Shown here: in pieces, positions 17,123 to 19,211 of the stretch | How the letters are laid out: every line of letters begins with the position of its first letter | How positions within the stretch are numbered: the stretch's first letter is position 1 | Assembly (NCBI GenBank): GCA_001789805.1 | Contig: MGAR01000001.1 | Coordinates: 1 to 61,196, forward strand | Direction: 5' to 3' | DNA length: 61,196 nt | Source of the DNA: Candidatus Roizmanbacteria bacterium RIFCSPLOWO2_01_FULL_41_22 | GTDB lineage: Bacteria > Patescibacteriota > Microgenomatia > UBA1406 > GWC2-37-13 | Made by a program: the position numbers and the translations under genes | Notes under the pieces: generated by a model | What the model was told of the DNA's origin: nothing | Database searches by the model: none | Seen by the model: only the letters and a program-made list of their open reading frames with translations

Positions 17123-17476
17123 TTATGTAGGTAGATTTTTTACTATTTCATCTGCTTGTTGTAAAGATAAAATGACAATGTTATTCAAATTCGAAACGGA
17201 ATCATCATAGTCACATTTATTTCGATTATCTCTTAATCTTCCTAAATACGTTGCAATTATTCTTGTTTCTGCCCTTTGATTATAAAAAGTAGCAACATCT
17301 CTATGCATTCTTGATGATCTTGTATTTGCTAAACCTTGACTTATGGCATAATTTCGGGATAAACAGTAAACACCATAATAAGCTCTACTTACAGACGATC
17401 TTTTACTAGAATCTGTTATATTTTTTGCCAATCTTTTAGCAAGGGTGATATATCCTTTCCAATCAAAACATGTCAT
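17123..17476 (-). CDS. HEPN-like protein (UPF0332-type), third gene of an unknown operon
   Basis: 117 aa, helical. SSVSRAYYGVYCLSRNYA (about 27-44) is the typical first HEPN helix pair, and RDNRNKCDYDD (about 82-92) occupies the position of the HEPN R-x4-6-H motif, but with Asp-Tyr instead of His, as in UPF0332-type HEPN proteins. Without the histidine it may be a non-cleaving partner. Its ATG overlaps the stop of the gene upstream (ATGA), so it is coupled to two proteins I cannot place. Strongly A/T-rich. HEPN domains are frequent in toxin and defence systems; function here is open. Confidence 0.6.
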   Translation of the reverse strand: MTCFDWKGYITLAKRLAKNITDSSKRSSVSRAYYGVYCLSRNYAISQGLANTRSSRMHRDVATFYNQRAETRIIATYLGRLRDNRNKCDYDDSVSNLNNIVILSLQQADEIVKNLPT

Positions 17477-18201
17477 GCAAATTCTATATTTATATTAAAT
17501 TTATTCACATCGGTAACTTTCTTTAAATACCAATACTCATCTATTTTTTTAAGCAACTTAAAAGCAACGTTAGGCTTAATTCTACAAACTATGAATAAAA
17601 ATAATGTAGATAAATTATTAATTTCAGGATCTTCTTTTAATTCCAATCTGAAACTAAATTTATTTTTAATTATTTTTGGGATTTCAATTACTGCTTCTCT
17701 TAAGAAAATAGTTATTCCAATATTTTTTTCAAGAAAACGAACAATTTCTTTTTGGTCAATAATTTGACATGAATTAATCTGAAGAAGGCTTAAAGTTTCC
17801 TTAATGGTATTAAATATATTTCTCATCTGCTGAGGTTGAAGTTTTCTAAGAGAATCTTGTCCAATAATATCTTTTAACTCACTTATTTTGTTTGAAAGAT
17901 CCATAGCACTACTTTGATAAGTTTGTTGTTTGAATTCTTCTTGAGAATCAATAATCTCGTCTTGTGTAGGATTAAAACGAAAACGTTCAAGCAATTTATA
18001 TTTATCTTCTTCGAGATTGGAATTATCTAAAAAAATCTTAAAACTTTGTTCATTTTCAAGAAAATAACTCGGTGTTTCGCTTTCTTCACTTTCCGATCTT
18101 TTAAACCACTGTAAAAAATGCGTTTTGTAATTTTCTTCTCTGGCTAATCCTAATGGTAAACGCACTGACAATTTAAGTTCATCAGTCATTGTCAGATTCA
18201 T
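17473..18201 (-). CDS. Unknown protein, second gene of the HEPN operon
   Basis: 242 aa, no signal peptide or membrane helix. Predicted helical, with charged and coiled stretches (about 95-150, MDLSNKISELKDIIGQDSLR and IFNTIKETLSLLQINS) and a C-terminal part rich in Lys/Ile/Asn. No catalytic motif is visible to me. It starts 5 nt after the stop of the 234-aa gene and overlaps the HEPN gene by 4 nt, so the three proteins are probably made in fixed proportion and may form a complex. I do not recognise the family. Confidence 0.6.
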   Translation of the reverse strand: MNLTMTDELKLSVRLPLGLAREENYKTHFLQWFKRSESEESETPSYFLENEQSFKIFLDNSNLEEDKYKLLERFRFNPTQDEIIDSQEEFKQQTYQSSAMDLSNKISELKDIIGQDSLRKLQPQQMRNIFNTIKETLSLLQINSCQIIDQKEIVRFLEKNIGITIFLREAVIEIPKIIKNKFSFRLELKEDPEINNLSTLFLFIVCRIKPNVAFKLLKKIDEYWYLKKVTDVNKFNINIEFA

Positions 18202-18206
18202 TGTAT

Positions 18207-18911
18207 TTAGTATTTAGGTAAAAAAACTTTTAGATTATCATCAAGATATTTCCATGCTGAATTTATATAATCAATAATATTGTCTTCATCTAGATCTAAA
18301 ACGATATCTGGTCTAGTATTGATATCAAATGATGCAAGTAAAATTCTGCCAAACTCATCTTCTTCTTTTAATTTTGCGGCCTTGACTCTGAACCAAATAT
18401 TTGAGCTAAACCTATTTATTTCTTTCTTATTTAAAAAACCGGCATTAAGATCATTATTATTTTTTGTAAATTTTAAGTCTTTAATATAAGAATTTTTAAT
18501 TATTTTAACAGCATTATCCACTTGAAATTGAAAAGTTAAGACAAATCCTAATCTAATAATTTTAGGTTGAAAAACCTTTTTAATTGCAGAAACTACAGAT
18601 CTCAAATTATCTACATATTTTTTTATCAATGTCTCAACTTCAATTGTTTTTGAATCAGGCATTTTTTTATTATTAAAAAATAGGTCAAATCGGGTAGCGG
18701 TAGCCTGAAAAGAATATGTTTCGTCTTTGTTTTTTAGTATAAGGCGAGGAAATTCAGGTGGAGCTTCCGGAGGTAATGGTAAAAATATTGGATCACCGTC
18801 AAATAGAGTTCCTGTCTCCTTAGTGAGTTTAGAGGAAACATCAAGTTTATCAGATATAATAAATCCAGATGTAAATAAACCCGTTTGTATATTAAGGCCT
18901 ATAATTTTCAT
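18207..18911 (-). CDS. Unknown protein, first gene of the HEPN operon
   Basis: 234 aa, soluble. Mixed alpha/beta: the beta-rich N-terminus (IIGLNIQTGLFTSGFIIS) leads to a proline-rich turn (PLPPEAPPEFPRLIL, about 46-60), then strand-helix repeats, ending with an acidic stretch (DLDEDNIIDYINSAW). The 'ppEfPRl.l...d..ysfqat..R.dl' segment suggests a sensor or scaffold more than an enzyme, but that is speculation. The ATG at 18911 lies 9 nt after TATAAT. Leads the operon with the 242-aa and HEPN genes. Confidence 0.6.
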   Translation of the reverse strand: MKIIGLNIQTGLFTSGFIISDKLDVSSKLTKETGTLFDGDPIFLPLPPEAPPEFPRLILKNKDETYSFQATATRFDLFFNNKKMPDSKTIEVETLIKKYVDNLRSVVSAIKKVFQPKIIRLGFVLTFQFQVDNAVKIIKNSYIKDLKFTKNNNDLNAGFLNKKEINRFSSNIWFRVKAAKLKEEDEFGRILLASFDINTRPDIVLDLDEDNIIDYINSAWKYLDDNLKVFLPKY

Positions 18912-18971: not shown

Positions 18972-19082
18972 GTACGGGGCGGACAGATGTGCCAGCAAGA
19001 GGATTCGCCACAGTCATTCGACGCGGCGTCCTGTCGCATGACAGGACGAACCTCTGATCTATCGCTTACCTGCCCGTCGTAC
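18972..19082 (-). ncRNA. Folded RNA-like element abutting the 3' end of tRNA-Met
   Basis: On the minus strand the 111 nt just after the tRNA form a consistent branched fold. The outer stem is GTACG(AC)GGGC (19082-19072) with GCCCCGTAC (18980-18972). The middle stem is AGAGGTTCG (19055-19047) with CGAATCCTCT (19007-18998). Inside it are two hairpins: GTCCTGTC-ATGC-GACAGGAC (19047-19028) and GCCGC/GTGGC (19027-19007). That is a three-way junction closed by a long-range helix, only 4 nt from the tRNA. There is no T-run to suggest a terminator, and the matching reading frame is clearly tRNA read-through. Class unknown; it could be a 3' trailer with a processing or regulatory role. Confidence 0.45.
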
Positions 19083-19086
19083 AAAG

Positions 19087-19158
19087 TAGCTGGGGCGGGA
19101 TTCGAACCCACGACCCGTCGCTTATGAAACGACTGCTCTACCACTGAGCTACCCAGCC
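19087..19158 (-). tRNA. tRNA-Met (anticodon CAU), CCA not encoded
   Basis: Cloverleaf folds fully: acceptor GGCTGGG/CCCAGCT (G1-U72), D arm GCTC-GAGC, anticodon stem GTCGT/GCGAC around the loop TTCATAA (anticodon CAT), T arm GTGGG-TTCGAAT-CCCGC, discriminator A. The G1:U72 pair argues against initiator tRNA. CAU could in principle also be Ile2 if modified to lysidine, but the body resembles elongator Met. CTTTG follows the discriminator, so CCA must be added after transcription. Confidence 0.9.
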
Positions 19159-19166
19159 TCTACTTT

Positions 19167-19211
19167 GGCCAGACGGGTGAAACGACTACTCAATTTCTGA
19201 GCTATGCTGGC
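19167..19211 (-). pseudogene. Degenerate tRNA fragment
   Basis: Minus strand reads GCCAGCATAGCTCAG...GTAGTCGTTTCA then CTGGCC. The 5' part copies the D arm and 5' anticodon stem of the neighbouring tRNA-Met (AGCTCAG, GTCGTTTCA), and the ends can pair (GCCAG/CTGGC). The 3' anticodon stem and T arm are missing. Likely a decayed tandem tRNA copy. Confidence 0.45.

Follow-up and report, generated by a model that had tools for sequence, protein, structure and literature searches.

The nested tRNA-Met locus

The window, that is, the whole stretch of 61,196 nucleotides analysed here, contains a single tRNA according to ARAGORN and Rfam, a tRNA-Met(CAT) on the minus strand (19086-19158), with a canonical cloverleaf that scores above the cut-off (RF00005, 68.8 bits). 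This intact gene is the cargo of a 109-nt cassette with palindromic ends (19069-19177), and the cassette splits a second, outer tRNA-Met gene (18990-19211, minus strand) between CA and T of its anticodon (positions 35/36). The T-loop of the outer gene is in turn split by a 41-nt insert of two hairpins. On the minus strand the outer gene reads GCCAGCA, the D arm and GTCGTTTCA, then the cassette with its tRNA-Met, TAAGCGAT..AGAGGTTC, the 41-nt insert and finally GAATCCTCTTGCTGGCA. When both inserts are removed, ARAGORN calls a tRNA-Met(CAT) of 73 nt, even though the outer D-loop (GAAAT) is without the conserved GG. The intact 222-nt stretch from 18990 to 19211 folds on the minus strand into two cloverleaves, one nested in the other (-102.6 kcal/mol, z -5.9, none of 200 shuffles as good): the inner tRNA-Met sits in the anticodon loop of a complete outer cloverleaf. 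The features of the locus are as follows.

19178-19211, minus strand: 5' half of the outer tRNA-Met, with acceptor GCCAGCA, D arm and 5' side of the anticodon arm, ending ..TTTCA (ARAGORN after insert removal)
19069-19177, minus strand: inserted cassette of 109 nt, splitting the outer anticodon CA/T (same architecture and site in loci L004, L005 and L011)
19159-19177, minus strand: left arm of the cassette, CCCGTCTGGCCAAAGTAGA; in relatives CCCGCCTGCCRAAGTAC (comparison with relatives)
19086-19158, minus strand: inner, intact tRNA-Met(CAT) of elongator type, the sole canonical Met tRNA found in the assembly (ARAGORN, Rfam RF00005 at 68.8 bits, tRNA census)
19069-19085, minus strand: right arm of the cassette, TTTGTACGACGGGCAGG; in relatives ..GTACGGCGGGCAGG (comparison with relatives)
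19048-19068, minus strand: first 3' part of the outer gene, with the 3' side of the anticodon arm, variable loop and 5' T-stem AGAGG followed by TTC (insert removal, fold)
19007-19047, minus strand: insert of 41 nt with two hairpins, lying between TTC and GAA of the outer T-loop (insert removal, fold; homologue in locus L028)
18990-19006, minus strand: second 3' part of the outer gene, with the remainder of the T-loop, CCTCT, acceptor 3' strand TGCTGGC and A73 (insert removal, fold)
18972-18984, minus strand: downstream GTCCGCCCCGTAC, outside the tRNA, pairing in the outermost helix of the first-pass annotation (fold)

A first-pass annotation had read 18972-19082 as a three-way-junction RNA element fused to the 3' side of the tRNA-Met. 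The observations behind it are sound: the region begins 4 nt past the 3' end of the tRNA-Met (19086-19158, minus strand), lacks a T-run terminator, and on the plus strand folds at -45.9 kcal/mol against -34.4 (s.d. 3.6) for shuffles (z -3.2, none of 200 as good), an energy outside the shuffled range, and its architecture recurs elsewhere. The region is not one free-standing unit, but the 3' half of the interrupted tRNA-Met. One strand of the proposed outermost helix is the right arm of the cassette, whose partner is the left arm on the 5' side of the tRNA-Met, and the remaining helices are the outer T-stem, the acceptor 3' strand and the two-hairpin insert of the T-loop. The nested structure escaped notice because half of it lies beyond 19158, outside the interval described. 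With insert removal and the 222-nt fold, the outer tRNA takes the place of an independent RNA element behind the tRNA. The further suggestion of a mobile element that targets the tRNA came close, the region being a tRNA 3' half split off by a palindromic cassette.

Two neighbouring observations deserve mention. The 41-nt insert has a homologue (92% over 51 nt) at 1501-1551 of locus L028 (G064:C70), within a duplicated tRNA-Lys 3' end that lies directly behind an intact tRNA-Lys. Three consecutive ORFs of 117, 242 and 234 aa, all without an NCBIfam match, adjoin the nest at 17123-18911 on the minus strand.

Recurrence of nested tRNA genes

The genome of the window (G000) holds three more nests, a tRNA-Ile(GAT) in a tRNA-Ile(GAT), a tRNA-Arg(TCG) in a tRNA-Arg(TCT) and a tRNA-Glu(CTC) in a tRNA-Glu(CTC), and BLAST against 72 genomes of the family revealed nested tRNA-Met genes in other genera. 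A search of the family with one form of the left arm gave five matches, all of them arms of tRNA-bearing cassettes. The two-end pattern CCCGCCTGCN{86,116}GCGGGCAGG matched 16 times in 83 genomes of the order, each time with a tRNA inside, and more than 50 times in 372 genomes of the class; the two sets overlap and together gave about 55 matches. The reversed pattern, used as a control, found no match in either set. A stricter pattern applied to 84,980 GTDB species genomes retrieved eight stretches, four without a tRNA and four with one, the latter all from Patescibacteria (Roizmanbacteria twice, Gottesmanbacteria and Kerfeldbacteria). Judged by the records that carry names, the family of the window stands close to Roizmanbacteria (Microgenomates). 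Altogether, parsing yielded 57 distinct tRNA-containing cassettes. Their first and last nine bases are identical, which is imposed by the search pattern and is not evidence; the cassette of the window differs there.

Other tRNAs that are nested or half-nested (Pro TGG, Thr TGT, Thr GGT, Leu CAA and Ile GAT) were seen at loci L208, L211 and L213 of genome G128 and L249 and L251 of G147. These use other palindrome families, such as CCCCGTGAGATA/TATCTCACGGGG, and the phenomenon is thus wider than one element family. In a Gottesmanbacteria contig (JACREK010000060.1, L041, near 78-192), a tRNA-Leu(TAG) is nested in a tRNA-Leu, with the extra 5' half of yet another, third tRNA-Leu immediately upstream. 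The genome of the window also contains a tRNA-Glu-like fragment followed by GGCGGGCAGG (L106, G000:C35, near 6568), apparently the relic of another nest, and a degenerate tRNA-Thr with a 21-nt hairpin in its D-loop (L096, G000:C14, near 2458), about 330 bp from an intact tRNA-Thr(CGT).

Cognate identity, strand and site of insertion

Exact excision restored an outer tRNA on the same strand as the inner one in 36 of the 57 cassettes and on the opposite strand in none, although the cassettes are not all independent, as insertion sites are conserved per anticodon. The restored outer tRNA has the amino acid of the inner one in 34 of these 36 cases and the same anticodon in 31, while halves joined from different cassettes gave a tRNA in 34 of 486 trials. 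Three of the five without an identical anticodon show one-base changes that keep the amino acid (Arg TCG/TCT, Ile GAT/AAT, Thr TGT/AGT); the other two are odd ARAGORN calls in which GAC and CAC are still present by eye. In the 21 unrestored cassettes the outer gene carries further loop inserts, has decayed or runs off the contig end, and the same anticodon can be read by eye in about 18 of them. The identities represented include Met, Ile, Val, Thr, Ala, Gly, Glu, Gln, Arg, Pro, Leu and Trp. Moreover, a test that makes no use of the element sequence found a spanning outer tRNA for 9 of 156 tRNAs in four genomes, against 1 of 200 for mismatched flanks.

The element itself lies in either orientation (29 forward, 28 reverse); inner and outer tRNA nevertheless always share a strand. 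Insertion sites range from 33/34 to 37/38 and extend to the D and T loops, the inserts being always in loops. The arms, alone 10-45 nt, are always complementary. All the tRNA-bearing cassettes seen lie in tRNA genes, though random transposition would give insertions elsewhere as well.

Which copy works

The tRNA census found the inner gene to be the only copy of its anticodon for all four nests of G000, and likewise in G128 (100% complete), G045 and G147. An uninterrupted counterpart exists as well: G006, a congener of G001, has an intact tRNA-Met that differs by one base from the halves split in G001. The two genomes have the upstream flank in common and differ in the downstream flank, and in both the junction CA|T shows neither duplication nor loss. 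Other genomes preserve stages of decay of the outer gene. In G005 an intact tRNA-Met stands between outer remnants, GTCAGCG..GGTA on one side and, on the other, an insert-bearing T-arm and CGCTGAT, whereas G002 keeps the inner tRNA and the 5' remnant of the outer gene. Outer anticodons drift (AAT, AGT); inner anticodons do not. Pairing in the outer stems is still high, at 6.9 of 7 in the acceptor and 4.8 of 5 in the T-stem, for the 36 restored cases, which were selected for being recognisable. The outer tRNA is probably dead.

The possibility that interrupted genes are the sole copies of the many tRNAs not found in G000 (Asn, Trp, fMet and others) was considered and set aside, as a T-arm search found none of these interrupted; the missing tRNAs probably lie in assembly gaps. 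A separate case was noticed in G128: an initiator tRNA gene at locus L217 (near 464, minus strand, G128:C6) seems to be interrupted by a group I intron, and this would account for the absence of fMet from the census of that genome.

Movement of the cassettes

Between families, inner tRNAs resemble each other more (identity 0.81) than outer tRNAs do (0.73; 18 non-independent pairs, Wilcoxon p 0.006). Trp cassettes from three families are 0.90-0.94 alike in the inner gene and 0.67 in the single outer pair that can be compared. This contrast in identity suits horizontal movement of the cassettes. The divergence between inner and outer gene of one nest is close to that generally seen among tRNAs sharing an anticodon, and derivation of the inner copy from the outer one is therefore not required. 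A selection for differing inner and outer acceptor stems was also looked for, but the differences did not clearly exceed those found generally among tRNAs that share an anticodon.

Palindromes of the same family, with CCCGCCTGC ends, are found in frame inside two ORFs of G000, which indicates that the element ends are mobile without a tRNA. These palindromes, of about 39 nt (L090, G000:C22, near 6172; L091, G000:C13, near 29257), both look like the protein-coding palindromes of the Rickettsia type, and one of them lies, by eye, in a TatD-like sequence context. A dispersed repeat in Patescibacteria KR11_N3.mb.38 (L040 and L044, two near-identical copies) has the same palindromic ends around a non-tRNA interior.

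As to what moves the cassettes, no enzyme was found linked to their ends. Y1/RAYT transposases occur in 14 of 16 nested genomes, are absent from G000, and are flanked by other palindromes: at the eight loci examined, no CCCGCCTGC palindrome flanks a Y1 transposase, one stray motif apart. Viral carriage was likewise discarded, since the patterns of the cassette and the T-loop insert have no match in IMG/VR.

A cassette that would replace the gene it breaks

We consider it probable that a mobile palindromic element disrupts a tRNA gene present in single copy and persists because it brings the cognate replacement with it. The element would be a short DNA with palindromic ends (CCCGCCTGC...GCGGGCAGG) and one complete tRNA gene in its hairpin loop, presumably moved by an enzyme acting in trans. 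It would insert, without target duplication, into the anticodon, D or T hairpin loop of a resident tRNA gene; insertion would be the direction of change. The resident gene would be broken, and the cell would survive on a cassette tRNA of equal identity and direction, able to use the resident promoter. Afterwards the outer tRNA would decay and gather hairpin inserts, leaving the inner gene as the sole functional copy. The cognate match could stem from the lethality of non-cognate insertions, from homologous recombination through the outer halves, or from both. A promoterless cassette would rescue the cell only when co-directional, and a non-cognate strike on a single-copy tRNA would be lethal; recombination could further spread established nests, which would also produce the match and the conserved sites.

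Direct support comes from the anatomy of the nests, the cognate match, the shared strand, the single-copy state of the inner genes, the uninterrupted relative and the decay series. Against this explanation stand the lack of an enzyme tied to the ends, the failure to see a tRNA-bearing cassette outside tRNA genes, the fact that the empty-site pair G006/G001 has the upstream flank alone in common, and the many outer tRNAs that are perfectly paired, as would also be expected if they were functional. In the window the odd gene is the outer and not the inner one, and the history there may include gene conversion.

Alternative explanations

It is unlikely that nests spread purely by homologous recombination via the outer tRNA halves, from a few founding nests and without present transposition. 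Such a process would explain the cognate match, the common strand, the conservation of sites per anticodon and the shared inner lineages. However, the homology amounts to only ~35 nt per side, and the same ends are found with at least 12 amino-acid identities in two orientations, which calls for a mobile step in the founding events. Recombination thus complements movement of a replacement cassette and does not replace it.

About equally unlikely are functional nested introns, where one precursor yields two mature cognate tRNAs: RNase P and 3' processing would free the inner tRNA, after which some nuclease and ligase would unite the outer halves, kept together by the GC-rich arms in the manner of archaeal split tRNAs. 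The intact outer stems in 36 of the 57 cases would fit, as would the complementary arms, the confinement of inserts to loops, the shared strand and the outer Arg, whose TCT anticodon was seen in no other tRNA of G000, a genome 93% complete. Against this reading, outer genes decay and their anticodons drift to AAT/AGT, the element takes both orientations and its sites vary. The RNA ligase RtcB (PF01139) is missing from G000 and from 13 of 16 nested genomes, being present in three, and the predicted selection for differing acceptor stems failed, nested pairs differing about as much as tRNAs with a common anticodon generally do. At the locus Rfam did not match any group I intron, and such an intron was dismissed in the absence of a catalytic core, RF00005 being alone in the window at the gathering score.

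Two further ideas can be put aside. A stable small RNA or a processing signal behind the tRNA-Met, as first proposed, is very improbable: the region does fold better than shuffles, but every helix is explained by the interrupted tRNA and its hairpin inserts, Rfam finds no family besides tRNA in the window, and conservation is limited to tRNA exons and element ends. All genomes are metagenome-assembled, and tRNAs and palindromes are repeats, yet an assembly or binning artefact is hardly credible given the consistent architecture and cognate match in dozens of unrelated assemblies, the empty reversed-pattern control and the occurrence of nested loci in contigs of several hundred kilobases.

Significance

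The hosts of nested cassettes are tiny bacteria of the Candidate Phyla Radiation, in which every cassette appears to take over from the very gene that it disrupts. If this replacement is real, it would represent a new gene organisation, with single-copy essential tRNAs broken and replaced in place by a cassette of ~110 nt, and a new selfish strategy, whereby the host is made dependent through replacement of what the element breaks and the sole cargo is the cognate tRNA. It would also help explain the fast turnover of tRNA genes in reduced genomes. Standard annotation calls the inner gene alone and misses the broken outer gene. Were the outer tRNAs spliced instead, they would reveal a new route of tRNA maturation in bacteria.

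Comparison with known systems

No earlier description of nested tRNA genes was found in the open literature, and one in closed-access publications is possible. A review describes bacterial tRNA genes as uniform apart from introns (PMC4033280). The group I introns of bacterial tRNAs (PMC4033280) resemble the cassettes in being inserted in the anticodon loop of a tRNA gene, whereas the cassettes have no group I core or Rfam match and arms that alone are 10-45 nt. Archaeal BHB introns and split tRNAs share the insert in the anticodon loop and the GC-rich arms that unite the halves; the cassettes differ in their variable sites, both orientations, the decay of the outer gene and the general absence of RtcB. 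To our knowledge, no splicing route of the BHB type is known in bacteria.

In Caldiarchaeum, a mobile element disrupts an archaeal tRNA-Thr gene (Sugahara 2012, PMC3293823), splitting or duplicating it and leaving a tRNA fragment; that element, a 1.8-kb one with a recombinase, gives rise to an intron and a split gene, and no complete cognate tRNA is nested inside. Rickettsia is among the organisms known to have short palindromes within genes (GTAG/CGTC repeats, PMC3733652). REP and Rickettsia palindromic elements are, like the cassette ends, short, GC-rich, inserted in genes and in frame in ORFs, and presumably mobilised in trans, and a dispersed CCCGCCTGC palindrome indeed occupies two ORFs of G000. 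In contrast to them, the cassettes contain a tRNA gene and sit in the loops of cognate tRNAs, no GTAG/CGTC tag was noticed, and the Y1 (RAYT) genes, none in G000, are flanked by other palindromes at the eight loci examined elsewhere.

Finally, genomic islands and proviruses (Islander) split tRNA genes and restore them by supplying the missing end; they carry an integrase and are kilobases long (PMC4383910). The splitting and restoration of a tRNA gene, with a displaced fragment left behind, is common to both. In place of att-site identity and a displaced end fragment, both outer halves here flank a complete second tRNA, and in place of an integrase the 109-nt cassette consists of the tRNA and its arms. 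Whereas an island mends the gene it enters, here an entire replacement tRNA lies inside the broken one, within an element of ~100-120 nt.
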